Source of the DNA: Verrucomicrobiota bacterium
Lineage (GTDB): Bacteria > Verrucomicrobiota > Verrucomicrobiia > Verrucomicrobiales > Akkermansiaceae
Assembly: GCA_026397725.1 (NCBI GenBank)
Contig: JAPLUI010000127.1
Coordinates: 1-64,000, forward strand
Direction: 5' to 3'
Length of the DNA: 64,000 nucleotides
Both the position numbers and the translations under genes were made by a program. The notes under the pieces were generated by a model. The model saw only the letters and a program-made list of their open reading frames with translations, was not told the origin of the DNA and ran no database searches. Shown piece by piece: positions 1 to 60,220 of this stretch (position 1 is its first letter; the number at the start of each line of letters is the position of its first letter).

Positions 1-117
1 GCTTTTTTTTCAACTTTCGGAGGTGCGCCCGGTGCGTTCGGTCACGCACGCCTTTCAAACGCCCGCATCTAACATTCTTAACTCCGCCTGGAGCCCTCGA
101 AACCCGGTCCCGGATTT

Positions 118-3100
118 GTGTATAAAGACCAGGGTCCGGCCCCCGGCTCTTTCAACGGCCTTCACCGGAACAGCAACTTCCTAGCAGTAAGAAAAATACA
201 ACTTGCTGTTATTGTCGGCTTTCTTTCAGTTTTCTCTTTCCTAACTGCTGTAGATGCAGAAACCGGGAATAATGGCCCGAAACTTCCGGTCAAGGATGGG
301 CTTGCCTTGTGGCTGGATACTTCACAGCTTACCGGGTTGACCAACGGCCAGGAGGTGAGCACGTGGACGGATGTGTCCGGCTGTGGAAATAATGCCACCA
401 GGCAGAGTTCTTCAAACGCCGGTTATCCCCAGTACGTTGCCGGCCAGCTCAACGGCTTGCCGGTATTGCGTTTCAACGAGGGCGAACTCTCGGGCGATTC
501 ATTCAAGTTCAACAGGATCTCGAATATCCGGACAGTATTCTGGGTGGTCAAAGAGCGTGCCGTGAAGGATGTCGGATCATTTCTCCTTGGTGACAGCGAT
601 ACCGCCGACTTTCACAGGCAGTTCAACAACGACAGACACGTCTGGGAAGGGGCCAACGAAAAGGTCAGGAATGGAACGACCCGGCTCATGGGTTCCCAAG
701 CCAGGGGCCTGAACCCATCCATTCCGCCAGGGCAGTTCGTGGTGATTTCACTGGTTACTACCGGGGATGTGCAGGCAAATCAGATCACCAATGATAGGGC
801 TTTCAAAGATAGAGGCTGGCGTGGCGATATGGCGGAAATCCTGATCTATACCAAGGCTTTGTCAGATGACGAGGAGGCCAACGTAGGCCGATACCTTGCC
901 CGCAAATACGGGTTGAATACCGAATACCCACCGGAAGGAGAGCATCGTGTCCCTGCCGGCGTTGGGCAGTTGCGTGCAGCCATAAAAGACTTGATGGCGA
1001 CCTTTGGCAGCGAATATCCGGACGGGCCTAAGTTCAGCGCCCGCCTGGATGACCTGGAAAAGACGTTCAAATTTGAGGAGGAATCCAAGTGGGCAATCGC
1101 ACGGCAGGAATTTGAAAAACTTCATCGCGAAGCTCTCGTCGGCAACCCGCTGGTTGCAGGTCAGCCGCTGGCCTATGTGGTTCGTGCCCAGTACGCCGGT
1201 GATCATCATAATTCTGAAACGATGTTCCAGACGGGCGAGTGCAACACAGCATCCTTTCGCGGCCCTGGCGCTTTAGAGACCATAGACTTTAAGACCGGCG
1301 AAACCAAACTGCTCGTGGATGCACCGCAGGGTATGGTGCGGGACCCGGAAGTGAGATGGGACGGGAAGAAGATTGTCTTCTCCATGCGCAGGGATATCGG
1401 GGATGATTATCACCTCTACGAGATCAACCCCGATGGATCGGCGATAAAGCAACTGACATTCGGTGGAGGAATCACCGATATCGATCCGTTCTATCTGGCC
1501 GATGGCCGGATCGCTTTCTCTTCCACACGTGAACCGAAGTACTGCATGTGCAACGTCCACATCATGTGCAACCTCTTCGTTATGGAAGCCGACGGGGCGA
1601 ATATCCACCAGATCAGCAAGAACACGTTGCACGACGCACACGGTTCGCTGCTGGACGATGGCAGAATCCTGTATGATCGCTGGGAGTATGTAGACAGAAA
1701 CTTCGGCGATCCGCAGGGGTTGTGGACAGCCAACCCCGATGGCACCCAGCACCTCGGTTATTATGGGATCAACACACCTTCGCCGGGCGGCATAATCGAT
1801 GCCCGCCAGATTCCAGGAACAAAATCGGTCATGGCCGTGCTCGGCAGTTGTCACGACAGGCCATGGGGCGCTCTTGGAATCATTGATAGAAGCTACGGAG
1901 TGGACGGCAGGGCGCCGGTGGTTCGGACCTGGCCGGCGGCGGCAGTCGACCTGGTGCGCGATCCCGGAACTGCAAACGGGGCGTGGGACCAGTTCATGGG
2001 TGTGAGACCGCGGTATGAAGACCCGTTCCCGCTAAGTGCAAAATACTTTCTCGTGTCGCGTACAACCGGCAATGATGAACAGATGGGGCTCTACCTCCTG
2101 GATATCTTCGGGAACGAGATGCTGCTCCACACGGAAGGCGGAGGTTGTTATGACCCGCAACCGATAGCAAAGAGACCTGTGCCTCCTGTGATTCCTGTAC
2201 GCCGTGATTTCGAGAACAAGGAGGGAACTTTTTATGTGTATAATGTCTATGAAGGGACCCACATGGCCGGCGTGAAACAAGGCGCAGTAAAATCCCTGCG
2301 CGTGGTTGAGTCCCTGGAAAAGCGCAACTGGACCAACCCGGCATGGGGTGGACAGGGTGTTGAACGGCCAGGCATGAACTGGCACGATTTCTCCGCCAAA
2401 CGCATCCTGGGAACTGTTCCGGTGGAGACGGATGGCAGTGCGCACTTCACTTTACCGTCCGAACGGTTCGTCTATTTCCAGCTCCTGGATGAGCGTGGAA
2501 TGATGATTCAATCAATGCGTACAGGCACACTCGTGCAGTCGGGGGAGCGCACTGGATGTATTGGCTGTCACGAGAACCGTATTTCCGGTTCATTGCCTGC
2601 AAACACGAGCACGCCGATTGCGATGCTCAGGCCGCCCAGCAAGCTTACCGGCTGGCATGGGCCGGAACGAGCCTACGGTTATTTGGCGGAGATGCAGCCG
2701 GTCTGGGACCGTAATTGCATAAAGTGTCACGATTTCGGCAAAGAGGGCAGCAAGAAGCTGGTGCTCGCCGGAGACAAAAACAGCGCATTCAACATATCCT
2801 ACACGACGCTCTGGACGAGCGGGCTTCTGCGCGTGGTGGGCGCCGGGCCGGCCGAGATCCAGGCGCCTTACAGTTGGGGGTCCCATGCTTCGCCTCTTAT
2901 TAAGGTAATCCAGGAAAACAGGAAGCAACATACCAACGTCAAACTCAGCACTGAAGATTTTGACCGGCTCGTGACATGGGTGGATCTGAATGCACCTTAC
3001 TACCCGGCCTATGAGAGTAATTTTCCTAACAACAACTACGGCCGTTCGCCTCTAGACGCAGCACAAACCGGACAGTTGCAGGGGATCAGCGACTTGGAAA

Positions 3101-3378
3101 TCTGTTTTGACAGGCCGGAGATGAGTCCCGGGCTGGAGAAGATCAAAAGCGATCCGGCAAAATACAACGCCGCACTTGAGGCGATCAGGGCGGGGAAGGC
3201 AGCGCTGGAAAAATCTCCGCGGCCCGACATGCCTGGCTTCGTGCCATCTCCAAAGGATCAGGAACGGCTAACGAAGTATGACGAGCGCCGGAAGATCGAA
3301 CTGCGCAATCGCGAGGCAATTCGAACGGGAAAGAAACTGTACGATGCAGTGCCTGTCGGTCAACTCCCCCCGCGTTGA
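118..3378 (+). CDS. Secreted LamG-like + PD40/beta-propeller di-heme protein, hydrazine synthase alpha subunit (HzsA)-like family
   Basis: 1086 aa ORF (GTG start); signal-like segment QLAVIVGFLSVFSFLTAVDA; LamG-like LALWLDTSQLTG..STWTDVSG; PD40-like FSMRRDIGDDYHLYEINPDGS; CxxCH motifs CIGCH and CIKCH. Confidence 0.7.
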   Translation: MYKDQGPAPGSFNGLHRNSNFLAVRKIQLAVIVGFLSVFSFLTAVDAETGNNGPKLPVKDGLALWLDTSQLTGLTNGQEVSTWTDVSGCGNNATRQSSSNAGYPQYVAGQLNGLPVLRFNEGELSGDSFKFNRISNIRTVFWVVKERAVKDVGSFLLGDSDTADFHRQFNNDRHVWEGANEKVRNGTTRLMGSQARGLNPSIPPGQFVVISLVTTGDVQANQITNDRAFKDRGWRGDMAEILIYTKALSDDEEANVGRYLARKYGLNTEYPPEGEHRVPAGVGQLRAAIKDLMATFGSEYPDGPKFSARLDDLEKTFKFEEESKWAIARQEFEKLHREALVGNPLVAGQPLAYVVRAQYAGDHHNSETMFQTGECNTASFRGPGALETIDFKTGETKLLVDAPQGMVRDPEVRWDGKKIVFSMRRDIGDDYHLYEINPDGSAIKQLTFGGGITDIDPFYLADGRIAFSSTREPKYCMCNVHIMCNLFVMEADGANIHQISKNTLHDAHGSLLDDGRILYDRWEYVDRNFGDPQGLWTANPDGTQHLGYYGINTPSPGGIIDARQIPGTKSVMAVLGSCHDRPWGALGIIDRSYGVDGRAPVVRTWPAAAVDLVRDPGTANGAWDQFMGVRPRYEDPFPLSAKYFLVSRTTGNDEQMGLYLLDIFGNEMLLHTEGGGCYDPQPIAKRPVPPVIPVRRDFENKEGTFYVYNVYEGTHMAGVKQGAVKSLRVVESLEKRNWTNPAWGGQGVERPGMNWHDFSAKRILGTVPVETDGSAHFTLPSERFVYFQLLDERGMMIQSMRTGTLVQSGERTGCIGCHENRISGSLPANTSTPIAMLRPPSKLTGWHGPERAYGYLAEMQPVWDRNCIKCHDFGKEGSKKLVLAGDKNSAFNISYTTLWTSGLLRVVGAGPAEIQAPYSWGSHASPLIKVIQENRKQHTNVKLSTEDFDRLVTWVDLNAPYYPAYESNFPNNNYGRSPLDAAQTGQLQGISDLEICFDRPEMSPGLEKIKSDPAKYNAALEAIRAGKAALEKSPRPDMPGFVPSPKDQERLTKYDERRKIELRNREAIRTGKKLYDAVPVGQLPPR

Positions 3379-13772: not shown

Positions 13773-14000
13773 TTTCAAAATACGTGTAGCCGGTCAGGCC
13801 CTCGCGGTAGAAATCGAGGATTTCCCAACGAATTTTCTTGGCAATGCGGACCAGATGCCTGATTATCTCGCTTGAGGAATTCTTCCATGGAAATGGCTTC
13901 AAACCACTGCCGCTTGCCAAAATTCGCGTTTGGAGCCTTGCGGTTTTCGAGGTCCGCCAGATTTTCCGGCTTATTGGTCCCCTTTTCCCCAGCCACCCCT
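13773..14000 (-). pseudogene. Frameshifted fragment of an unknown protein (..QWFEAISMEEFLKR / EIIRHLVRIAKKIRWEILDFYREGLTGYTYFES)
   Basis: Two overlapping minus frames carry complementary protein-like segments; directly abuts dispersed element copy B. Confidence 0.3.
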
Positions 14001-14070
14001 TTTTCCTCGCCCTCCGGGCCGGCCATCGGCCCATTCAACGGCCTTCACCATAAAGGCAAATTTCTGTAAT
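13996..14070 (+). repeat. Dispersed ~90 bp element, copy B
   Basis: CCCTCCGGGCCGGCCATCGGCCCATTCAACGGCCTTCACCATAAAGGCAAATTTCTGTAAT. Confidence 0.65.
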
Positions 14071-14145: not shown

Positions 14146-16122
14146 ATGATCATGAAACATAATGGACACATCACGAGGACTTCAATGCTGGTGTTGACGG
14201 GACTTGGTGCCACTCAACTGGCAGTCGCGGCACCCTTGGTATTGGAGGTGCGGGCGAATCAACCGGGGCATCCTATCAATAAAACACAATATGGCGTGTT
14301 CTTTGAGGAAATCTCCCATGCCGGCGAGGGCGGGCTGTATGCGGAGCTGGTCAAGAACCGTTCGTTTGAGGACAGCACCGACTCGATTCCCGATTGGACG
14401 TTCTACAAGACCGGCGTGGCCGATGGGACCATGTCACTCGAAAAGACCGGGCTTCTGAACGCCGCGCAAGCGTGTGCGCTGAAGCTGGATATCAGCGTTC
14501 CCGGGACGGTCGGCGTGGCCAATGCCGGCTACTGGGGGATCCATGTGGTCAAAGGACGAACGTATGATCTCTCGTTTTTCACCAAGGCAAGTCTGCCAGC
14601 AAGCGCGACCATCACTGCCAAGCTCCAGAACCACGACGGCACCAAAACCTACGCCTCATGCATCGTTGGCGGTCTAACGGATGCCTGGCAGAAACACAAG
14701 GGCACCATGACCGCCGACGACACCGAACCCCAGGGCCGCCTGACCCTGGAGGTCACGACCGAAAAACCCGGCACCCTATGGCTCGACGTGGTGTCACTTT
14801 TTCCGCCGACCTGGAAAGGCCGGCCTAACGGGACGCGGCCCGACCTCGCCGAAATGGTGGCGAAAATGAAACCCGGCGTGATCCGCTTTCCGGGCGGCAC
14901 TTATGTGAGCACCAACCCGTCGGATGCCCCGCGACCGCTGAGCGAACTTGGGCCGATTGAGGAGCGTCCCGGTCATCCCGCGCCTGGCAAACAGAACCCA
15001 TGGGGCTACCACAACAACGACGGTTTCGGGCTGCATGAATACCTGCAATTCGCCGAGGACCTGGGTGCCGAACCGATCTATGTGTTCCAAGGCGGGGCGA
15101 ATCCAGGGGCGGAAATGAACAGGCCCGAGACCTATATCAAGGGCGCGGCGCTGGACCAGCTCATTCAGGAGTCCTTGTCAGTCATCGAATATGCGAATGG
15201 CCCGGCCACCACGACCTGGGGCGCCAAACGCGCCGCGAACGGACACCCCGAACCGTTCCACATGAAATACGTCCAGATCGGCAATGAGAACTGGCACAAA
15301 CCATTTCACGACAACTACATCGTCATCTACAACGCCATCAAGGCGAAATATCCCGAGATGCAGGTGATCTGGGGCGGTGACTGGATTGGTAACAACCAGC
15401 ACGGCTATAAGTCCGACGGCATCATGCCTGAAGGCTCCGCGGCGCAGATTGTTGATGAGCATTTCTACAAGGCTGATGACTGGTTCTACAACAATTCCGA
15501 GCGTTACTCTCCGCAGAACTATCCACGCGGCGTGGCGCGTGAAGCCAAGGTGTTTCTGGGCGAGGTCTCGGCGTGGAAGGACACCCTCGATGCCGCTCTC
15601 AAGGAATCCGCCTTTCTGCTCGGGGCTGAGAAGTATTCCGACAAGGTGGTGATGGCAGTCTATGCGCCTCTCTTCGCCAACGTGAATTTCATGAAGTGGT
15701 CGGCCAATGCCATCTACTTCGACAACGCGCGTGTTTACGGTTCTCCATCCTATCACGCACAGGCCATGCTTGGGAACAATGTCGGCGATGTGAACCTGGT
15801 GGTCGGAGGGCTGGAAGGGCTCCTTAACAAAAAACTGTTTGTCAACGCGAACCGGATCACCGCGACCGGTGAGGTCATCATCAAAATCGTCAACTCCGAA
15901 GCGCAAGCGCGCGAAATCCGAATTGAGGTGCGCGGCATGCCCAAACCTCCGCGCTCCGGACGTGAGATTGTTCTGACTGGTCCTGATTTGAACGCGGGCA
16001 ATTCGTTCGACAAGCCGTTGAATGTGGCACCGGTTGAAAGGAAGTTGGAGAAGCCGGGCGATTCGTTCACCTACTTGGTCAAACCCCAATCATTCACGGT
16101 GCTCAGGCTGATGAATCCTTGA
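14146..16122 (+). CDS. Alpha-L-arabinofuranosidase, GH51 family, secreted
   Basis: TQYGVFFEEISHAGEGGLYAELVKNRSFED, PGVIRFPGGTYVS, MKYVQIGNENWHKPF (acid/base NE), KVFLGEVSAW. Confidence 0.85.
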   Translation: MIMKHNGHITRTSMLVLTGLGATQLAVAAPLVLEVRANQPGHPINKTQYGVFFEEISHAGEGGLYAELVKNRSFEDSTDSIPDWTFYKTGVADGTMSLEKTGLLNAAQACALKLDISVPGTVGVANAGYWGIHVVKGRTYDLSFFTKASLPASATITAKLQNHDGTKTYASCIVGGLTDAWQKHKGTMTADDTEPQGRLTLEVTTEKPGTLWLDVVSLFPPTWKGRPNGTRPDLAEMVAKMKPGVIRFPGGTYVSTNPSDAPRPLSELGPIEERPGHPAPGKQNPWGYHNNDGFGLHEYLQFAEDLGAEPIYVFQGGANPGAEMNRPETYIKGAALDQLIQESLSVIEYANGPATTTWGAKRAANGHPEPFHMKYVQIGNENWHKPFHDNYIVIYNAIKAKYPEMQVIWGGDWIGNNQHGYKSDGIMPEGSAAQIVDEHFYKADDWFYNNSERYSPQNYPRGVAREAKVFLGEVSAWKDTLDAALKESAFLLGAEKYSDKVVMAVYAPLFANVNFMKWSANAIYFDNARVYGSPSYHAQAMLGNNVGDVNLVVGGLEGLLNKKLFVNANRITATGEVIIKIVNSEAQAREIRIEVRGMPKPPRSGREIVLTGPDLNAGNSFDKPLNVAPVERKLEKPGDSFTYLVKPQSFTVLRLMNP

Positions 16123-17268: not shown

Positions 17269-17357
17269 CCATGAATCTTGCAACCCCCATTTCCCCACCC
17301 TCCGGTCCGGCCACCGGCCCTGGCAACGGCGTTCACCCGAAAAGCAATTTCCTAGCA
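17269..17357 (+). repeat. Dispersed ~90 bp element, copy C
   Basis: ATGAATCTTGCAACCCCCATTTCCCCACCCTCCGGTCCGGCCACCGGCCCTGGCAACGGCGTTCACCCGAAAAGCAATTTCCTAGCAAT; translates [30 protein letters not shown]. Confidence 0.8.
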
Positions 17358-17548
17358 ATGACGCCGCACATCGGGACGCCGTTGCGGCGGGTGAGCGCCA
17401 CGTTGAGGATGGGCGAGGCGGTCTTGGCATCCTCGAAGAACATCTCGAAAAAATCCCCGAGCCGGAACATCAGCAGCACATCCGCGGGCAGGGATTTCCG
17501 CATGGCCTGGTATTGGGCCATCATCGGGGTGGGAACGGGCACGGACAT
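17358..17548 (-). pseudogene. mutS: N-terminal fragment of DNA mismatch repair protein MutS, truncated at the element C boundary
   Basis: [57 protein letters not shown], the canonical MutS start, then runs into IARKLLFG encoded by the element. Confidence 0.8.
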
Positions 17549-19359: not shown

Positions 19360-21828
19360 TCAAAATACACGCACCGGGCGAACTCTGTCAGCATTTTGAA
19401 CCATCCGGACTGCACTGGAACCGGTACTGAAATCCAATGCCCATGCATAAAGACTGCCTGATTGTGAAGATGAATAGTAAAATGAATAGCTGCCAGTTGC
19501 AAAACCACCTATTGCGTTTCTATTTAAGTACAATTTATCCAATTCGGCTTTGCTTGGTAAAAACCAATCGGTATATCCACCACGTTCATAATTTGCACAC
19601 ACTTTGGCAGCATAATTGTAAGAACCCGTATATGCGGCTAAAATTGCGACAGTATTGGCGCTACCAGTACCTAAAGCGGTACCTGTACTAATTGTTATCG
19701 TATGTTCAAAATCATACCAGGCTGCGTTACTCACATCAGCAACTGCTGCAATTAAACCATGTTTTTCACCGGCAACATATCCAGGATCTCCAGACTGAAA
19801 GAAATAGGCAATCACGCCGCCCTGATAGGAATCACCAATATTCAGGTTTTCAATCTGATCATCCACCCAGGTGGGAACTCCGTTTTTATATTTCAATAAT
19901 TGTCCGTTTATCCCGGCAGTTACCGTTACCCAGGCCGAACCGTTCCAGTATTGCATCTGGCCTGTGGCAGTACCCGTTGTTTGCGCATCCAATTTGGTTT
20001 TATCCGCCGCGCTCATGCTTCCGGCAGCAGAGGTGGTTGCTGCGCTAATGGATATGGCAGGGGTAACTCCTCCGCTCGAAACAATGGGAGCCGTACCTGT
20101 AACATCCGTAACCGTACCAACAGCATGAGTGGTCCAACCTACTCCCCCACTGCTATTGGTTGTCAGAACCTGCCCATTGGTACCAATCGTACTGCTGACT
20201 ACACCCGATGCGTCATTCAACAAAACACCTTTGGTGGTCAATGCGGGGATAACAATCTGGCCATTGCCCTTTATTCTCATTGTTTCAGTTAATGATGCAC
20301 TGCTGCCATATCCGAACACAACATCACTGTTACTCGAAACGGTGTATATCTGAAGTTTATAATCCTGTACTCCTAAGCCATAATGGTTTGTCGCGGTTCC
20401 AAACAATGAAATTTTATCTCCAAGAGTCGATCCGAAATTGAGAGGATAGACAGGGGTAATGCCTATACCAACATTCCCGGAAGCATAGTAAATATTCGAA
20501 CCTGAGGTAATCCACTGGCTGCTTACAAGGTTATCAACCTTTGTTTTATCAGCAGCGCTCATACTTCCGGCAGCGCTGGTAGTTGCCGCCGAAATTGAAA
20601 TGGCAGGAGCATTTCCACCGGATGAAACAATTGGAGCTGTTCCGGTAACTCCGGTAACGGTTCCACCCGCAGGAGTTGTCCAGCTTGTACCGCCAATGCC
20701 GTCGGTGGTAAGAACATTTCCGCTTGTACCTCTTGTTGCAGGCAGGGTTAGGCTTGTTGCTTTTCCATTTCCATTGATGATAAGAGAGCCTCCGATTCTT
20801 GTATTTCCATTTTTTAGAATTGAGAGAGCATCACTTCTACCATTATCTGATCCATTCCCAATCACAAAAAGACGGTCAGTTGATACAAAAGATGTTGGAT
20901 CGCCTGTGCCAACTGTGGCATTTATGCCAAGCGCCGTTTCTCCGAAAGATTGTGCGGTATTAAGATAACCTGATGCGAAAGATCTATCGCCACTTGAGGT
21001 ATTATTAGCTCCAATGGCTGTAGCATACTGTCCACTTGAGGTATTTACTAAGCCAATGGCAGTAGAATTACTTCCGCTTGCAGTGTTATTGTATCCAACT
21101 GCAAAGGAACTCTCTCCGCTTGTATGATTTTGACCGCCAATTGCAATAGAATATTGTTCGCTTGCAGTATTATTAGATCCAACTACAAAGGAACCAGCTC
21201 CGCTTGCAGTATTAGCACCTCCAACAGCAAAGGAACTAGTTCCGCTTGCAGTATTACTATTTCCAGCTGCAAAGGAAAGATTTCCGCTTGCTACTTGCGT
21301 AGGTGAACTCCTTAGCATCTGAAAATCAACTGCTTTTAGACCTCTGATTTTACCTCCTGCTGACGTTCCATCGGGTTGCTGGGCAAGTATGGAGCCGTTT
21401 CCTTTAGGCGAAATTACAAAGTCCACATCCGTTTGGGCGTCGTTTCGTGACAATAGTTTTACACCGTATTTGGTGTTATACAGGTAATTGCTTTCGGTGA
21501 AGTTCGTTAATCCCCCGATGGCAGTTAAGGCCTTCCAGACCGGTGTACCCTGGGTTCCTGAATTGTAATAATACCCGGGTATCAATCCCGAACCATCTGT
21601 GGTGTTGTAAACCAGCAGGCTTGTTGCCGGAGAAGGAACGGTGGTTGCATCGTTTACCCCGGTCAAAGCAATTTGCGGTATCAGCAAACCTTTGTTCGCA
21701 GATTTCACCTGGAGCATGGCCGAATTGTCGGGGGTGCTGCCATCGTCGTTAATGCCCACGTTTTGGGCAAATAGTCTAAGGTTCAGTATTAAGACAAATG
21801 CCACTGCTAGAGTTAAACTGGCTTTCAT
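19360..21828 (-). CDS. Large Bacteroidota-like surface protein with YadA/Hep_Hag-type head repeats and a DUF1566-like C-terminus
   Basis: NVGINDDGSTPDNSAMLQVKSANKGLLIPQI; repeated NTASGxxSFAVGxx; C-terminal YTDWFLPSKAELDKLYLNRNAIGGF..YYSSSQSGSLYAWALDFSTG..VRPVRVF; clearly AT-richer than its surroundings. Confidence 0.8.
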   Translation of the reverse strand: MKASLTLAVAFVLILNLRLFAQNVGINDDGSTPDNSAMLQVKSANKGLLIPQIALTGVNDATTVPSPATSLLVYNTTDGSGLIPGYYYNSGTQGTPVWKALTAIGGLTNFTESNYLYNTKYGVKLLSRNDAQTDVDFVISPKGNGSILAQQPDGTSAGGKIRGLKAVDFQMLRSSPTQVASGNLSFAAGNSNTASGTSSFAVGGANTASGAGSFVVGSNNTASEQYSIAIGGQNHTSGESSFAVGYNNTASGSNSTAIGLVNTSSGQYATAIGANNTSSGDRSFASGYLNTAQSFGETALGINATVGTGDPTSFVSTDRLFVIGNGSDNGRSDALSILKNGNTRIGGSLIINGNGKATSLTLPATRGTSGNVLTTDGIGGTSWTTPAGGTVTGVTGTAPIVSSGGNAPAISISAATTSAAGSMSAADKTKVDNLVSSQWITSGSNIYYASGNVGIGITPVYPLNFGSTLGDKISLFGTATNHYGLGVQDYKLQIYTVSSNSDVVFGYGSSASLTETMRIKGNGQIVIPALTTKGVLLNDASGVVSSTIGTNGQVLTTNSSGGVGWTTHAVGTVTDVTGTAPIVSSGGVTPAISISAATTSAAGSMSAADKTKLDAQTTGTATGQMQYWNGSAWVTVTAGINGQLLKYKNGVPTWVDDQIENLNIGDSYQGGVIAYFFQSGDPGYVAGEKHGLIAAVADVSNAAWYDFEHTITISTGTALGTGSANTVAILAAYTGSYNYAAKVCANYERGGYTDWFLPSKAELDKLYLNRNAIGGFATGSYSFYYSSSQSGSLYAWALDFSTGSSAVRMVQNADRVRPVRVF

Positions 21829-21986
21829 GTTTTCGTTTTATGTTAAGGGTTACTGCTGAGAATTTGCTTTTTCGGGTTGGTTGGGATGAGGAAGCCAGCC
21901 GGCATCGGTGGTTTCATCACGCGCCGTATCCAAGCACAATTCCGGCCCGGGCAATGAGAGGGATTTCCCTCTCATTCGGCGGGAGT

Positions 21987-30326: not shown

Positions 30327-30349
30327 GCGCGGCCCAAGGCGGGCGTTTC

Positions 30350-30396
30350 CCCGGCCATCCGGACCGACCACCGGTTCTTTCAACGGCCGTCACCCC
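30350..30396 (+). repeat. Dispersed ~90 bp element, copy D (partial)
   Basis: GGCCATCCGGACCGACCACCGGTTCTTTCAACGGCCGTCACCCC. Confidence 0.6.
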
Positions 30397-30668
30397 ATCC
30401 ACATCTCCAAATCCGCCATTGCGGCCCTGACGTTGCCCTTGGCCCCTTCCGCGATCTGGCGGGTGATGGCGATGGGAGCGCCCCAGCGCCGGGCGAGGAA
30501 TGCCGCGAGAACCTCGTTTTCCGGTGGCTGGAGGCGGACCGATTGGAAGCGGGTCTGGAAGCGTCCCGTTAGGCTGGTCACGTCGAGGTTGGTGGTGCCG
30601 AGGAACGCGTGACCCGGTCTCATGCGGTCGATCATCGCAAATCGCTTCAGAAATTCCCCTTGGCATTG
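30390..30668 (-). pseudogene. C-terminal fragment of a phage/mobile-element-type AAA+ ATPase
   Basis: RPGHAFLGTTNLDVTSLTGRFQTRFQSVRLQPPENEVLAAFLARRWGAPIAITRQIAEGAKGNVRAAMADLEMWMG*; no Walker A present. Confidence 0.5.
30391..30430. repeat. 40 bp direct repeat, left copy (ATPase 3' end)
   Basis: CACCCCATCCACATCTCCAAATCCGCCATTGCGGCCCTGA; 39/40 identical to 33233-33272. Confidence 0.85.
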
Positions 30669-34138: not shown

Positions 34139-34240
34139 ATGAACCACCCCATGAATCCCGAATCCGCCATTGTTCCCTCCGGGCCGGCCACCAGCCCTTG
34201 CAGCGGCCTTCACCCCGCGAGCGAATGCTTCACAGTCGTC
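34139..34240 (+). repeat. Dispersed ~90 bp element, copy E
   Basis: ATGAATCCCGAATCCGCCATTGTTCCCTCCGGGCCGGCCACCAGCCCTTGCAGCGGCCTTCACCCCGCGAGCGAATGC. Confidence 0.75.
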
Positions 34241-39894: not shown

Positions 39895-39978
39895 GAATGC
39901 CAACCCCTTAGTCCCCGCCCTCCGGTCCGGCCACCGGCTCTTGCACCGGCCTTCACCATAAATGCAGTTTCCCAGCAG
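39895..39978 (+). repeat. Dispersed ~90 bp element, copy F
   Basis: CGCCCTCCGGTCCGGCCACCGGCTCTTGCACCGGCCTTCACCATAAATGCAGTTTCCCAGCAGT, 10 bp before the next start codon. Confidence 0.8.
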
Positions 39979-39987
39979 TCCGAAACC

Positions 39988-41241
39988 ATGCAACCTATGA
40001 ACATAAAACAGTTAGCCAGCACCCTCATCCCCGCCCTCGCCGCCACGGCGTATCTATCAGCCAACCCCGCCGCCGGCACCTCGAAGTGGCCGGAGCAGAC
40101 GCCGGCCGGATGCCCGTTCGTCCGCTCGGGCGACCTGCCTGGCATGGAATTCACCGAGCGCCACGCGGAATACACCAATGCCGACACGTGGTATCCGTCG
40201 TGGGCGGCCGATGGCGACTTGTATTCGCCATGGACCGATGGCTCGGTCAATGGGTTGGGCTCCAACTCGGCGGGAAAGGATGCCACCACCGGCTATGCCA
40301 AGATCCTTGGCGATGATCCGCTCAACCTCAAGGTGGTGGACCAGGCGGTTTACAAATCCGATCCGGCACCCTATCAGAGCCGCTATCCATGTGGCAGCCT
40401 GGTTCATGACGGCGTCTGGTATTACGGCACCTATTGCCTCTACGGAGGACAAGTCACGGCAAAGGACGGCGTCACCTACAACTGGCCGTGGTTGGGGCCG
40501 TTTGTCGGGTTCCGCTGGTCCACGGATTTCGGCAAGACCTGGACCCAGACGCCCTGCACGCCGGCCAAGCCGTTGTTCGGCGAGGCATGCCTGAATGGCG
40601 AGCCGGTCAAGATCGGCGCGCCGCATTTCGTTGACTTCGGCAAGAACATGCAACACTCCCCCGACGGCAAGGCATATCTCGTCGCCCACGGCGCGTCCGA
40701 CGGTGTCAAGCGCCGCTTCGGCTATGACAGTTGGATCACCGGCGATGAGATCTATCTGCTGCGCGTCACCCCCACGATCGGGAACATGAACGATGCCTCG
40801 AAATACGAGTTTTTCGACGGCAGCGGCTGGACCAAGGATTTCAGCAAGATCAAGCCCATCGCCGCCTGGCGCGATAACATGGGCTGCGTCACCATGACCT
40901 ATAACGCGCCGTTGAAGAAATTCCTGATGTGCGTTACCGACGGCATGACCACCGGGTGCCGCTTCAACACTTATATCCTCGAGTCGAATCAAATCACCGG
41001 GCCGTTCAAGCTGGTGCAGTATCTGCGGTATTTCGGCGAGCAGGGTTACTTCGTCAATTTCCCGTCGAAGTTCATCAGCGCCGATGGCCGCACCCTCTGG
41101 CTCTCCTATTCCGGCAACTTCGCCACGTCATGGGATGGGCAGCAAATCAAGAAGAACCCGCCCCCCAGCAGCTATGCGTGGTGCCTGCAGGAGGTCAAGC
41201 TGCCAGCACCGGGCAAGACCCCGACAACCACATCCCCATAA
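39988..41241 (+). CDS. Secreted beta-propeller glycosidase-like protein (DUF4185/GH43-like)
   Basis: Signal MNIKQLASTLIPALAATAYLSANPAAG; YPSWAADGDLYSPWTDGSVNG, GVWYYGTYCLYGG, GFRWSTDFGKTWTQTPCTP. Confidence 0.6.
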   Translation: MQPMNIKQLASTLIPALAATAYLSANPAAGTSKWPEQTPAGCPFVRSGDLPGMEFTERHAEYTNADTWYPSWAADGDLYSPWTDGSVNGLGSNSAGKDATTGYAKILGDDPLNLKVVDQAVYKSDPAPYQSRYPCGSLVHDGVWYYGTYCLYGGQVTAKDGVTYNWPWLGPFVGFRWSTDFGKTWTQTPCTPAKPLFGEACLNGEPVKIGAPHFVDFGKNMQHSPDGKAYLVAHGASDGVKRRFGYDSWITGDEIYLLRVTPTIGNMNDASKYEFFDGSGWTKDFSKIKPIAAWRDNMGCVTMTYNAPLKKFLMCVTDGMTTGCRFNTYILESNQITGPFKLVQYLRYFGEQGYFVNFPSKFISADGRTLWLSYSGNFATSWDGQQIKKNPPPSSYAWCLQEVKLPAPGKTPTTTSP

Positions 41242-41327
41242 CAGATGCAACATGACCTTAACCACAACATTGCAGGGCACAACCGTGAAGAACCAAATCA
41301 CGTTCCCTCCCGCGTAGTGAAAAACTT

Positions 41328-41420
41328 CCCCATGAATCCCGAGGCTTCCATTTCCCCGCCCTCCGGTCCGGCCACCGGCCCTTGCAACGGCTTTCCCCCG
41401 AAAAGCGGTTTGTTAGCAGT
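41328..41420 (+). repeat. Dispersed ~90 bp element, copy G (in frame with GH51)
   Basis: CCCCATGAATCCCGAGGCTTCCATTTCCCCGCCCTCCGGTCCGGCCACCGGCCCTTGCAACGGCTTTCCCCCGAAAAGCGGTTTGTTAGCAGT. Confidence 0.85.
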
Positions 41421-43317
41421 CAGGTTGCTGGGGTTTGCGGCAATCATGGCTCTGTTGGGCCCTGTGCCCGCCGTTGCCGCCGAGACGGTCGCGAACGGCG
41501 CGCGGCCGACGACGCTTTCGATTGATCCGACCAAGACTGTCAATCGTATCGACGAGCGGGTCTATGGGCACTTTTTGGAGCACATCTATCATTCCTGCAA
41601 CGGCGGGTTGTGGGGCGATTTGGTCTGGAATCGCAGCTTTGAGTACAATGCCGCCGATGGGTCGGCATCGCATAACTGGACGGCCTATGGGCCGGGCAAA
41701 GCCACCCTTGCCAAGGACCATCCGCTGAACAGCAACTATTGCCAGCAGATCGTCGCTGAATCCGGCGAAACGGGACTCGAACAAACCCCTTTTTGCATCC
41801 GCCAAGGCGAGACCTATCGCGGCTCGCTCTGGGCCCGCGGCGAAGCTGCCGAGGGCCTGGTGGTTCGACTGCTCGACGGCTCGCAAACGCTGGGCGAAGT
41901 GACGCTGCCTCGCCCGACGGCCGAGTGGGGAGAGTATCCGTTTGAATTCAAGTCCACGCGCGGCACCGACAACGCCACGTTGCGGATTGGCGTCCGCGGC
42001 AAGGCCGAGGTCTGGCTGGACCAGGTGTCGATGATGCCCGAGAGTTGGGCCAAGGCGGGCGGGTTTCGCCCGGACTTGCTCAAGGCCGTCGCCGACCTGC
42101 GGCCGCCGGTCATCCGCTGGCCCGGCGGCTGCTACGCCAGTTGGTATCGGTGGAAGGAAGGCATCGGGCCGCAACACAAGCGGCAATCGTTCCCCGTGGA
42201 AGTATGGGAAGACCGGGACGTCAACTCCCTGGGCACTGACGAGTTCATGGCCCTCTGCCGCAAAGTGGGCGCCGAGCCACTGTTCGTGATCACCCTGGGT
42301 TTCGGTGAATTTCCTCGCGCCTATCCGAATGTCACGGCGGACGAACTCCTGCAGGATGCCCTCGATTGGTTAGAATACTGCAACGGCCCGGCTGACTCGA
42401 AGTGGGGCAAGGTTCGCGCGGCCAACGGTCATCCCGAGCCTTACAACGTGAAGTACTGGGAGCTCGACAACGAGGTGTGGGGAATAGGTGCCGAACGCTA
42501 CGCCAACGCAGTCCTCAAGTTCGCCCCTCCGATGAAGAAGGCCTATCCTTCGATCCAAGTGGCCATCTGCGGCAGCGCCGGCTATGATATTGCTTGGAAC
42601 AAGTTCATGATCGACCACTGTGCCGAGGTGATCGACTACCTGAGCCTCCACCATTACGAGAATCCCAGTGGGTATGCCGACGGGCCGCGAAACTATGAAG
42701 ATGCCTTCCAAAAGTCGGGCGAGTTGATCCGGCAGTCGAAGAACCCAAAACTCAAACTCTACATCTCCGAGTGGAACGTCCAAACGACCGACTGGCGCAC
42801 GGGCCTCTATGCGGGCGGGCTATTGAACAGCTTCGAGTGCTGTGGTGATTTCCTGGCGATGGGCTGCCCCGCACTCTTTCTCCGAACCACGGCCTCCAAG
42901 GAGCAAAATTGGAAAGCCCTCATCACCTTCGACCATCGTACTTGGTTCCCGGCACCTAACTATGTCGTGATGAAACTCTGGCGCGACCACTACGCGCCCA
43001 CCCGGGTGAACCTCGACGGAGATTGCCGCGGGTTGAATGCCTTGGCCACGAAGTCGGCCGACGGCCGGGCGATTTATTTCAAGGCCGTCAACCCGACCCC
43101 GGAACCCGTGACGGTCGAACTCAACATCATGCCGGGGTTTGCCGTGGGCAAGGCCGAGTTGGAGCTTGTCGCTCCCGACTCGCTTGACGCCCAGAACACG
43201 CTGGACAAGCCCCATGCGGTGCAACCTGTGGCCGGCGCCGTCGAGCGCAGCGGCTCCACGTTGCGTTTCACGCTTCCCCGCTGGTCGGCAGCCGTGCTAA
43301 GCGTCCACTCCACGTAG
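41332..43317 (+). CDS. Alpha-N-arabinofuranosidase, GH51, secreted; N-terminal leader supplied by element G
   Basis: MNPEASISPPSGPATGPCNGFPPKSGLLAVRLLGFAAIMALLGPVPAVAAE; DERVYGHFLEHIYHSCNGGLWGDLVWNRSFEYN; VKYWELDNEVWGIG; LYISEWNVQ. Confidence 0.85.
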   Translation: MNPEASISPPSGPATGPCNGFPPKSGLLAVRLLGFAAIMALLGPVPAVAAETVANGARPTTLSIDPTKTVNRIDERVYGHFLEHIYHSCNGGLWGDLVWNRSFEYNAADGSASHNWTAYGPGKATLAKDHPLNSNYCQQIVAESGETGLEQTPFCIRQGETYRGSLWARGEAAEGLVVRLLDGSQTLGEVTLPRPTAEWGEYPFEFKSTRGTDNATLRIGVRGKAEVWLDQVSMMPESWAKAGGFRPDLLKAVADLRPPVIRWPGGCYASWYRWKEGIGPQHKRQSFPVEVWEDRDVNSLGTDEFMALCRKVGAEPLFVITLGFGEFPRAYPNVTADELLQDALDWLEYCNGPADSKWGKVRAANGHPEPYNVKYWELDNEVWGIGAERYANAVLKFAPPMKKAYPSIQVAICGSAGYDIAWNKFMIDHCAEVIDYLSLHHYENPSGYADGPRNYEDAFQKSGELIRQSKNPKLKLYISEWNVQTTDWRTGLYAGGLLNSFECCGDFLAMGCPALFLRTTASKEQNWKALITFDHRTWFPAPNYVVMKLWRDHYAPTRVNLDGDCRGLNALATKSADGRAIYFKAVNPTPEPVTVELNIMPGFAVGKAELELVAPDSLDAQNTLDKPHAVQPVAGAVERSGSTLRFTLPRWSAAVLSVHST

Positions 43318-45467: not shown

Positions 45468-45544
45468 GAATCGCCATGGTGCTGTTTCTTAAAAAACATC
45501 GAACACTGAAGTTATAGGAGTAACCGAAAATGAAAAAAACAACC

Positions 45545-45584
45545 CCTTTTTCACCGCCCTCCAGTCCGGCCACCGGCTCTTTCA
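45545..45584 (+). repeat. Dispersed ~90 bp element, copy H (truncated at the DUF1254 gene 3' end)
   Basis: CCCTTTTTCACCGCCCTCCAGTCCGGCCACCGGCTCTTTCA; the terminal TCA is the minus-strand stop codon. Confidence 0.7.
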
Positions 45585-47054
45585 CCTGCGAATCTGGAGT
45601 TCGACGTTGGGCGGCAACCAGGTTCCGTCGAGGATCGCTTGCTCGGCCCAGTAGCAGCGCATATACAGCGAGAACGTTCCTTCCGGTGCCGGCACCCAGT
45701 TGGGTTCCTTGTCTTTGCCCGGCGACTTCGCGCCGAAATACAGCGTGAGCGACCCGTCCGGGTTGGTTTGCATGCCTTTGTTCTTGGTGCCGAGCGAGTA
45801 GCGGTTCAGCGGGTTGGGGTGGAAAAGGTGTTGTTCGTTGTAGAGCGTGATCGACCAGAAGCCTTTCACCGGCGGGAGCTGGCCCTTCGGGAAAGTGATC
45901 GAGTAGAGACTACTGCCAACCAGCGGCTGGCCCTGGCTGTCGAAATCGCGGTAGAGGTATTTTGTTTCCGTGGGCTTGTTTTCAAGGATGTTGGACTTGG
46001 CGGTTGCGGTGCGGTTGAGGTAGTCGGTGCCCCACTGGGCGTTGTTCACCGGCGAGTTCCAGCCGTTGCCTGCGGGCCGGCCGTTGTAGCGCCACTGGAA
46101 AAGCGGGGCGATGATTTCCTTGTCGGTGGTGATGAAAGATTCAACCAGTGCCTTCTTGATCTCCGGATCTTTCGCCGCGGCCTCGAATACGGAGCGAATC
46201 CAGCCGTAGAGGGCCTCCTCGCCCGGCAGCGGCGGCACGAGTTTCATCACCATCGGGAGTTCGTCACAATAGGCTTCCGGCACCACCCACTTGACCTCGC
46301 CTACAACGCCCGCCGGCACCGGGAAATGGGGCAGCTTGCTCCAATCCGTGGTTTTCATTTTCCCATCGAACCGGCTTAGCGGATAGAACATGATCTGATG
46401 CAGCAATGGCTGGACGGCCGCAGTGTCCTCCGCGGTGTCGTCTTTGAAAATTCGCGGGGCAATGGCTGCCATTTCCGTCGGACAGCGCACCACTGCCGTG
46501 ATGCCCGCGGGAACCTCACCCTTCCAGTTAGGTCCCACCATCAGATAGAAACCGGGCTTCGTGCCATAAGGCTTGCCGATGTCGCCGAACTCGTCGGTCC
46601 GGGCGTCATACATCGCATAGACCCAGAAGCGGTCGCCGAAATCCGGCACCTGAAAGACGGCCGGCTCCTTGTCCAGCGCAAAAGTTCCCCCGCCATAGAC
46701 CACGTCCTGGTTGGGGCACGCGATGAAGTTTTGGTCCGGTCTCATGTAATCGGTCAGCATCGCGTTCTGCCCAACCGGGGCAACCGGGATCACGCCGCCA
46801 TTGAGGCCGGGGCCGGGCAGCTTGGCCAGGCTGGCACGACGATTGTAGGTGTTGACCATCGGCCAGCCCCAAAGATATGCCATGCGGCCGATCATCTGAA
46901 CGTACTCTTTCGTCATGGCGGTGCCGGCCGCCGGACCGGGCACATCGCGGGCGGTCTTTGGTATCGCCACCGATTGGGCCAGCAGGCTCAGCGGCGCGAT
47001 CAGGGTTGCGGCCAATATGGCGGACAATAGGCGTTGTTTACCGGTGTTCTGCAT
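45582..47054 (-). CDS. DUF1254/DUF1214 domain protein, secreted
   Basis: AYLWGWPMVNTYNRRASLAKLPGP, DVVYGGGTFALDKEPAVFQVPDFGDRFWVYAMYDARTDEFGDIGKPYG, KGFWSITLYNEQHLFHPNPLNRYSLG. Confidence 0.8.
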   Translation of the reverse strand: MQNTGKQRLLSAILAATLIAPLSLLAQSVAIPKTARDVPGPAAGTAMTKEYVQMIGRMAYLWGWPMVNTYNRRASLAKLPGPGLNGGVIPVAPVGQNAMLTDYMRPDQNFIACPNQDVVYGGGTFALDKEPAVFQVPDFGDRFWVYAMYDARTDEFGDIGKPYGTKPGFYLMVGPNWKGEVPAGITAVVRCPTEMAAIAPRIFKDDTAEDTAAVQPLLHQIMFYPLSRFDGKMKTTDWSKLPHFPVPAGVVGEVKWVVPEAYCDELPMVMKLVPPLPGEEALYGWIRSVFEAAAKDPEIKKALVESFITTDKEIIAPLFQWRYNGRPAGNGWNSPVNNAQWGTDYLNRTATAKSNILENKPTETKYLYRDFDSQGQPLVGSSLYSITFPKGQLPPVKGFWSITLYNEQHLFHPNPLNRYSLGTKNKGMQTNPDGSLTLYFGAKSPGKDKEPNWVPAPEGTFSLYMRCYWAEQAILDGTWLPPNVELQIRR

Positions 47055-57978: not shown

Positions 57979-58102
57979 GCCATTCTGCCAAAAAACCGAT
58001 GATTTTCTGCCAAAAAACCCATAGACGGCCGGGAAAATTCGTGCTTGTCTGAACGCCACCGCAAGCAATGCCTTCCCCGGTTCGCGTCCAGCGCGCGCCG
58101 CC
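57979..58102. promoter_or_regulatory. Divergent intergenic element 2, copy 1, with 22-bp-spaced TTCTGCC direct repeats
   Basis: CCATTCTGCCAAAAAACCGATGATTTTCTGCCAAAAAACCCATAGACGGCCGGGAAAATTCGTGCTTGTCTGAACGCCACCGCAAGCAATGCCTTCCCCGGTTCGCGTCCA; similar to 62874-62997. Confidence 0.6.
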
Positions 58103-58150
58103 CACCGGTCCGGCCACCGGCTCTTTCAACCATCTTCACCCCAAGAGCAA
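58090..58150 (+). repeat. Dispersed ~90 bp element, copy I
   Basis: CCGCCCACCGGTCCGGCCACCGGCTCTTTCAACCATCTTCACCCCAAGAGCAAATTCCAACC, upstream of the 58175 start. Confidence 0.75.
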
Positions 58151-58174
58151 ATTCCAACCAACAAAAACAACACC

Positions 58175-60220
58175 ATGAAAACATCGGATATCATCAAGCC
58201 CACAAGGCCTCATCTCAAGCACCGTGCCCTGCCGCTGGCAGCCCTGGCACTCGCCACGGCCTGCGGCCTCAACTCCGCTCAGGCCATCGTCTGGGATACC
58301 GCCCGGGACAGCTCCTTGGATACGGACGTCGTTACTACGGGAACCTTGGTTCGCGCGGTGGCCGGGTCGCCCGTAGCGGGATATGGCGCGACGGTCAACG
58401 GCGTGGAGTTCACGCCTTACGCATCGACACCGTCGAATGATTACTCGTGGAATGGCACCCAGTATAACACCCTGAGCTGGGGTGTTGCGGGTGTGGGCGG
58501 CTGGACGGACAGCCTTGCCAAAACCACAACCGATACTTGGGGCCTGGCCCAAGGTAACGAGTATTTTGCCAACGTCCTACCAAGCGGGTTGACAGCGGAC
58601 TATACGAAGCTTCTGCGTGTTGGACGTTATGGCGGCGCGGACGATACCATGACCCTCGGTGGCCTGACCCTTGGCCAGTCCTACCTGGTGCAATTGTGGT
58701 ATTGTGATGCGAGAGGCTCTGCCAACGGGATGCCCATAACGACGATGTATTTGGACAACAACCCTAGTACGGTGATGTTGACCAACCGTGGCGCCTCGGG
58801 CGACCCGGGGCAGTATATCATCGGACGTTTCGTGGCCGCTGGCACCGTACAGTCCTTTGCGCTCACTGGCGCAGTGTTGGTCAATGCCTACCAGTTGAGG
58901 GCGATTGATCCTCTGCCCGAGAATCCGGTGGTCGCCATCACCAGCCCGGCCGACGCTGCGCCGGTGTTCTCCAACTTCACCATCATCGCCAATGCGGAGA
59001 CCTACAACGACACAATCAACAACGGCACAATCACCCAAGTGGAATTCTACGATGGTGCCACACTGCTCGGCACCGCCACCACCCCGCCCTACACCTGGGC
59101 GGTCACCGGCGCGGAACTGGGTGCCCACGTGCTAACTGCCAAGGCCTTTGACAGCGGCTCCCATGAGACCACCTCGGTCGCGGTCCACGTCACGGTGGTG
59201 GCGCCGGTTGCCATCGTCTGGGATACCGCCCAGGACAGCTCCTTGGATACGGACGTCGTTGCTACGGGAACCTTGGTCCGTGCGGTGGCCGGGTCGACAC
59301 AAGCAGGGAATGGCGCGACGGTCAACGGCGTGGAGTTCACGTCTTACCCATCGACACCGTCGAATCTATACCAACACGAGGGCTACGACCAGTATAACAC
59401 TCAGAGCTGGGGTACGGGTGAGGGCGGCTGGACGGACAGCCTTGCCAAAACCCCAAGCGATGATTGGGGCATTAACTGTCGTGACGGGTATTATAACAAC
59501 ATCCCCCCAAGCGGGTTGTCAGAGGCCTATACGAAGGTTCTGGGTGGTGTACGTGATAGCGGCACGCCCGCTACCATGACCCTCGGTGGCCTGACCCCCG
59601 GCCAGTCCTACCTGGTGCAATTGTGGTCGATGGATCCGCGAAACTTGGGCCAAAGGACGATGTATTTGGACGGCGATCCAAGTACGGCGATGTTGACCGC
59701 CCGAAGCGATGGCGACCCGGGGCAGTATATCATCGGACGTTTCGTGGCCAATAGCACCGAACAGTCCTTCGCGCTCACTGGCTCGGTAGTGGTCAATGCC
59801 TACCAACTGCGGGCGATTGCAGCCCCGCCTGCCGGCGGCTACGATGCCTGGGCCGGCAGCCCAGACGGATACGGGCTCACTGGTGGGGCCGCCGCCCGTG
59901 GTGCCGACCCGGATGGCGATGGCTTCACCAACCTTCAGGAGTTCCTCTTCGGCACCTCGCCGGTCGCTGGCAACGGCACCTTGGTGACGAGCGAAACAGT
60001 TGGCGGAGATCTCGTCCTGCACTGGCTGCAACGCTCAAGCGGATGCAGTTATCTGTTTCAGGAAAGCCTTACCATGGGCGCAGGCGAGTGGAGCCCCAGC
60101 GTGATCGTGCCGGTACTCGACGATCCAAGCGGCGTACCCACCGGCTATGAACGCTACAAGGCGACCATCCCCATCGGCGTCGCACGGAAGTTCTTCCGCG
60201 TGGAGGGTACCGAGAACTGA
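58175..60220 (+). CDS. Secreted protein with two ~210 aa tandem repeats, an Ig-like linker and the shared C-terminal module
   Basis: IVWDTARDSSLDTDVVTTGTLVRAVAGS.. and IVWDTAQDSSLDTDVVATGTLVRAVAGS..; C-terminus YDAWAGSPDGYGLTGGAAARGADPDGDGFTNLQEFLFGTSP..ARKFFRVEG. Confidence 0.7.
   Translation: MKTSDIIKPTRPHLKHRALPLAALALATACGLNSAQAIVWDTARDSSLDTDVVTTGTLVRAVAGSPVAGYGATVNGVEFTPYASTPSNDYSWNGTQYNTLSWGVAGVGGWTDSLAKTTTDTWGLAQGNEYFANVLPSGLTADYTKLLRVGRYGGADDTMTLGGLTLGQSYLVQLWYCDARGSANGMPITTMYLDNNPSTVMLTNRGASGDPGQYIIGRFVAAGTVQSFALTGAVLVNAYQLRAIDPLPENPVVAITSPADAAPVFSNFTIIANAETYNDTINNGTITQVEFYDGATLLGTATTPPYTWAVTGAELGAHVLTAKAFDSGSHETTSVAVHVTVVAPVAIVWDTAQDSSLDTDVVATGTLVRAVAGSTQAGNGATVNGVEFTSYPSTPSNLYQHEGYDQYNTQSWGTGEGGWTDSLAKTPSDDWGINCRDGYYNNIPPSGLSEAYTKVLGGVRDSGTPATMTLGGLTPGQSYLVQLWSMDPRNLGQRTMYLDGDPSTAMLTARSDGDPGQYIIGRFVANSTEQSFALTGSVVVNAYQLRAIAAPPAGGYDAWAGSPDGYGLTGGAAARGADPDGDGFTNLQEFLFGTSPVAGNGTLVTSETVGGDLVLHWLQRSSGCSYLFQESLTMGAGEWSPSVIVPVLDDPSGVPTGYERYKATIPIGVARKFFRVEGTEN

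Follow-up and report, generated by a model that had tools for sequence, protein, structure and literature searches.

A short repeat that in a few copies reads in frame into the signal peptides of exported proteins raises the question of whether it belongs to the genes that follow it or arrived in front of them as a mobile sequence. The repeat lies in a 64,000-nucleotide stretch of DNA (hereafter the window) from a freshwater Verrucomicrobiota genome, a 12.56-Mb draft in 584 contigs that carries scattered short copies of it. The data presented here indicate, with a probability of about nine in ten, that the element forms the right end (3', on the oriIS side) of a rolling-circle transposon of the IS91 family (Y2-HUH) in this Verrucomicrobiota lineage. 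Mobile elements of this kind are known; what deserves follow-up here is how abundant the copies are, how short the solo unit is, the sense bias, and the link to exported-protein genes.

Copies of the Element in the Window and Across Genomes

Seven places in the window match the 30-base core of the element with at most 3 mismatches, against 0 in shuffled sequence, and the repeat occupies nine plus-strand places, which we call copies A to I (Table 1). The same core at the same tolerance gives 83 + 55 matches genome-wide, so that the ~78-bp element is present in ~138 copies in the source genome; the reversed pattern, used as a control, gives none. Exact core matches in the GTDB species set fall only in records labelled Verrucomicrobiota or in neighboring PVC MAGs, mostly Akkermansiaceae, and a search of viral contigs returned no match. 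Within one genus (74 genomes), species carry anywhere between 0 and 138 copies; the three genomes with large expansions are our own, G068, and G054. A search of the literature, limited to open papers, found no description of the element in this lineage.

The 3' part of the element (AAAGCAATTTCTTAGCAGTC) also occurs behind other middles. A superfamily alignment shows a 5' block (CAACCCCTTTTCYCCCG) and the 3' end to be common to the members, with variable middles and no conserved fold. The sense strand shows no RNA fold (z = +1.4 for the consensus and a mean of +0.6 over copies), and an Rfam search of the window gave 0 matches above the gathering score.

Table 1. Coordinates of element copies and associated features in the window
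Feature	Position	Strand	Description
Contig-end overlap	1..134	.	Exactly 134 bases; the identical sequence closes contig C576 and recurs close to the beginning of C401
Copy A	133..192	+	3' half of the element only; CTAG 181-184, CAGT 185-188
Copy A, 5' half			Another repeat (1-134, contig-end overlap) in its place
Copy B	13992..14066	+	Solo right end; a second GH51-like gene (14185-16122) lies downstream in a different frame
Copy C	17271..17361	+	Putative transposon-derived ATG 17271; CTAG 17352-17355, then CAAT
Related subfamily (E2/E3 type)	21850..21906	-	Weak member, 21.5 bits; upstream of a minus-strand gene ending near 19360
Copy D	30344..30395	+	Element broken at a CACCCCA junction: 5' part present, an antisense C-terminal piece of an AAA-ATPase in place of the 3' part
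Copy E	34151..34238	+	Putative transposon-derived ATG 34151; frame leads to a lipoprotein-like signal sequence
Copy F	39901..39982	+	Solo right end; a DUF4185-like gene (39997-41241) has its called start 14 nt further on, in a different frame
Copy G	41321..41420	+	Transposon right end; in frame with a GH51-like gene up to 43317
Copy G, ATG	41332	+	Apparently kept from the transposon 3' region
Copy G, terminus	41413-41416; 41417-41420	+	TTAG (CTAG-type); tetranucleotide CAGT
Copy H	45539..45588	+	3'-truncated element, faces a minus-strand gene
Copy I	58098..58157	+	Degenerate right end; the gene at 58175 starts 17 nt further on, in a different frame

Copy D abuts a second dispersed repeat (window 30393-30635, minus strand), found at 35 other places in the genome, which consists of 5'-truncated, C-terminal AAA-ATPase-like fragments (...AMADLEMWMG-stop). 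The sequences downstream of these fragments differ, and some fragments are fused to the element in antisense. We considered the AAA-ATPase fragment as a carrier of the element and rejected it in that role; it is only a recombination partner. At C401 and other loci, the 5' module of window 1-134 adjoins the 5' half of the element in antisense orientation, a layout that resembles an inversion at the CCGGTCCGG core.

The Element and an IS91-Family Transposase

The element is physically linked to a transposase. In G068, an intact 505-aa transposase on the same strand ends ~211 nt upstream of an element copy; it matches the Pfam families Y2_Tnp (PF04986, 82.6 bits) and Zn_Tnp_IS91 (PF14319, an N-terminal zinc-binding domain, 67.3 bits) and the NCBIfam model NF033538 for IS91 family transposases (178.1 bits, cut-off 125). 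Six copies in our own genome have degenerate transposase remnants and the same 3' region, and the similarity between them ends at the 3' end of the element. Transposases down to 58% identity in other members of the genus are followed, at the same distance, by the same type of right end, as are most related transposases; 31 such right ends could be aligned. Transposase and element also co-occur across the 74 genomes (26 with both, 15 with the element only, 7 with the transposase only, and 26 with neither; p = 4e-4, Spearman 0.54), and the 15 genomes with an element and no detected transposase may reflect incompleteness, decay, or supply of the enzyme in trans. Terminal inverted repeats are absent, in that the ends of aligned copies and full-length loci, as inspected rather than scored, are not reverse complements, and a fixed right (ori) end lies downstream of the transposase gene. 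A full-length element would run from a left end through a ~505-aa IS91 transposase, a ~200-nt 3' region, and a C-rich block to the ~78-bp end, which would finish with ...AAAGCAATTTCCTAG and be followed by CANY.

Known systems offer close parallels. Right-end fragments of the IS91-family element IS801 likewise extend from a tetranucleotide to the retained right terminus, the IS801 transposase can act in trans, and chimeric coding sequences have been reported at its insertion sites (PMC3189936). IS801 fragments are 229-679 nt long, whereas the unit here is ~78 bp with >100 copies per genome, a Verrucomicrobiota host, and a strong sense bias, and is known from sequence rather than from observed movement. 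REP elements with RAYT transposases are also short, high-copy, intergenic, and tied to an HUH-type transposase (PMC2817692, PMC3733652); the element described here, in contrast, has no conserved palindrome, is ~78 bp rather than 20-40 bp, and is the physical end of a Y2 (IS91) rather than a Y1 element. With the IS91 right end, lake genomes of the Akkermansiaceae type have an explanation for a high-copy repeat that is otherwise confusing.

Boundaries and the Origin of Solo Copies

The four bases that come directly behind CTAG fit CANY in 225/264 copies, and a second CANY follows in 42 copies, against ~9 expected. In six copies (L112, L132, L105, L312, L087, and L116), tandem tetranucleotides (CAGT, CATT, CAGC) or a repeat of the last ~20 nt follow the CTAG terminus. 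Such tandem tetranucleotides had prompted us to consider an RNA-copied (SINE-like) element, a candidate that we dropped on finding the transposase link. The CANY beside the right end differs from GAAC/CAAG. Candidate empty sites are few and ambiguous, and since our search found no clean one, the target and the exact position of the terminus are putative; relatives of the GH51 gene in other genomes of the genus are only 43-45% identical and therefore yield no empty site.

Most copies are solo ends when judged by upstream homology: 63/107 in our own genome and 60/74 in G068. These solo copies keep the right end, and their left boundary often lies at a tetranucleotide that resembles the left end or the target. 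They begin at CAAC/GAAC in 37/64 and 33/52 cases, against 15% in nearby DNA, leaving ~40% without such a start, and the full-length sequence is missing just upstream of CAAC/GAAC in all but one of each solo set. From this boundary pattern we infer one-ended transposition, in which rolling-circle replication would start at the right end and often stop early at an internal CAAC, releasing a solo right end. One-ended transposition has been demonstrated for IS801, where tetranucleotide-bounded right-end fragments make up 26% of insertions (PMC3189936).

The solo copies could instead be what decay or recombination has left of full-length insertions. Most genomic fragments of IS801 are attributed by the authors of that study to reorganization (PMC3189936), and mosaics with other repeats are present in our own genome. 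Decay or recombination, however, sits poorly with a common 5' boundary at CAAC/GAAC far above background, with the absence of a full-length continuation upstream of solo copies, and with their excess over long copies (60/74 in G068); we regard it as the less probable origin, though one that deserves some weight. Beyond this question of mechanism, it is directly observed that the element is physically linked to a transposase, that its right terminus is fixed, that solo units are abundant, and that tetranucleotides lie at their boundaries.

Orientation, Reading Frame, and Downstream Genes

Gene contexts in our own genome were counted in ~1 Mb sampled around copies, and both the gene calls and the signal-peptide measure come from simple scripts of our own rather than standard predictors. 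The downstream neighbor lies in sense by 96:23 and the upstream neighbor by 92:22, with only 2 copies antisense to both. G068 shows the same direction more weakly (55:24 downstream, 45:32 upstream, and 10 copies antisense to both). Neighboring copies agree in strand by 44:1 and 39:5, above the gene-strand level (71%). The replication strand is a candidate cause of this shared orientation; a GC skew tied to replication could not, however, be separated from coding strand, and copies far apart on the same contig may lie in opposite orientations. Transposition alone does not explain the strong sense bias and the strand agreement; the latter may come from insertion into DNA made single-stranded during replication or transcription.

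Strand agreement of this kind would also suit an integron recombination site (attC-like) with the genes as cassettes, and the genome does hold an integron integrase above cut-off as well as many remnants. The element, however, has neither the symmetry of an attC site nor the imperfect palindrome with a conserved fold on either strand, a lack for which we rejected it as such a site; its copies are spaced 1-20 kb apart around large genes, the sequences after the integrases look different from it, and it is linked directly to an IS91 transposase. We give an integron origin practically no credence and retain the IS91 right end as the identity of the element.

The integrase loci have features of their own. 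Only one integrase is intact (L236, at G000:C352:854-1798 on the minus strand; 371.8 bits, cut-off 265), and the degenerate remnants (L237-L250) have common internal deletions and GTCGGAC tandem repeats. Behind each of them come an attI-like stretch and a gene that varies from one to the next, with the integrase facing the cassettes.

The sequence-only reading of this DNA had proposed that the element may act as a mobile 5' leader of exported proteins, possibly an attenuator peptide (SGPATG...NFLAV), and that it may supply the start codon. Its particulars hold: in copies A and G the frame does continue into a signal peptide, and the readings it gave for copies C (ATG 17271) and E (ATG 34151) are correct. 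Copy G reads MNPEASISPPSGPATGPCNGFPPKSGLLAVRLLGFAAIMALLGPVPAVAAE from its ATG, and the frame remains open through the GH51-like gene. Copy A reads from GTG 118 through NFLAV-RKIQLAVIVGFLSVFSFLTAVDAE with no later ATG ahead of the hydrophobic stretch, as had been stated, and no GTG or TTG either; because GTG 118 sits in the 134-base contig-end overlap, the 5' context of this copy is ambiguous and its putative GTG start unreliable. The ORF of copy E is broken and stops after 104 aa.

Several broader elements of that proposal also stand, namely that the element is mobile, that it lies mostly in sense upstream of genes, and that the genes downstream are enriched in N-terminal hydrophobic segments (signal peptides). 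Such segments occur in 57/70 downstream genes against 250/456 other genes (p = 2e-5). The enrichment in G068 depends on the threshold, being 25/38 against 83/209 at one (p = 0.004), whereas two further thresholds give p = 0.05 and p = 0.19. In 31% of copies the terminus has an ATG no more than 16 nt away, compared with a background of 18%, and a comparison of element-gene pairs between two genomes found no convincing conservation.

The part of the proposal that fails is the coding one. In-frame readings at copies A, E, and G and the signal-peptide enrichment would both favor a translated N-terminal leader or attenuator peptide, but differences from the consensus in the SGPATG frame of 109 copies fall on the three codon positions in a ratio of 110/128/102, and a share of 0.35 is synonymous where the mutation spectrum predicts 0.33. 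Genes that start within 150 nt downstream, pooled over two genomes, use the three frames about equally (24/19/35, p = 0.08), so that most copies are out of frame with the gene that follows and the in-frame relation does not exceed chance. One-base indels in the CACCCCAAAAG stretch are frequent and shift the frame between copies, and other subfamilies differ in their middles. The absence of codon-position bias and the use of all three frames, the two observations by which the leader hypothesis was to be judged, both go against it, and we consider it highly improbable. In general, the element is no coding leader peptide, even if the frame of a few copies runs by coincidence into the gene behind them. 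Copies would settle mostly in sense upstream of genes, where one that abuts or replaces the 5' end of a gene may be in frame by chance, as in copies A, E, and G. Rickettsia palindromic elements are repeats that can lie in frame within coding sequence; they are palindromic and inside ORFs, whereas the copies here are mainly intergenic and unbiased in frame.

The longer copies call for separate consideration, as an addition to the IS91 right-end explanation rather than an alternative origin. An outward promoter-like site (TTGGCA or TCGACA-16-TANNNT, once with a 17-nt spacer) appears in 20/31 aligned right ends, as consensus matches only, and an ATG lies near the same column in 26/31, mostly 165-205 nt before the end. 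The frame of that ATG is open to the terminus in 20/26, against 2 and 8 for the other frames; this contrast is weak, since ATGA alone puts a stop in the +1 frame and the aligned right ends are related to one another. Together these features could form an outward module (promoter, leader, and ATG) that drives or starts the downstream gene and has been kept upstream of exported-protein genes. A downstream gene in sense at 33:2 for long copies, compared with 57:13 for solo copies, is consistent with such a module, and the oriIS region of ISCR1, which has an IS91-related transposase, carries functional outward POUT promoters that similarly face the flanking gene (PMC6218425). The promoter sequence differs here, where it is putative, an ATG frame through the terminus is added, and most copies, being solo, lack the region altogether. 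Against the module stands also the equal distribution of differences over codon positions in the ATG-frame ORF (494/452/465), which gives no sign of selection on codons. We think it unlikely, though conceivable, that IS91-family right ends with a conserved outward module were repeatedly recruited as 5' regulatory or N-terminal parts of exported-protein genes. Should the module work, secreted enzymes would have received their 5' regions repeatedly from a rolling-circle transposon, in a context other than antibiotic resistance.

As for the start codon, the earlier suggestion is still possible only where a longer copy has retained a transposon ATG, which a minority of copies have. Copies C, E, and G retain an apparent one (CCCCATGAATC), and the GH51 gene behind copy G could be translated from this transposon-derived start. 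Automated gene calls in such genomes can carry transposon-derived N-termini, and should be read with that warning in mind.

Two further features of the window merit description. The reading frame at 118-3378 encodes a large exported protein; the full-length hydrazine synthase model scores far below cut-off and cytochrome c matches are weak, while the middle domain of hydrazine synthase alpha is matched at 110.9 bits (PF18582). A set of 42-bp direct repeats at 20989-21290 lies inside the minus-strand ORF 19360-21828.
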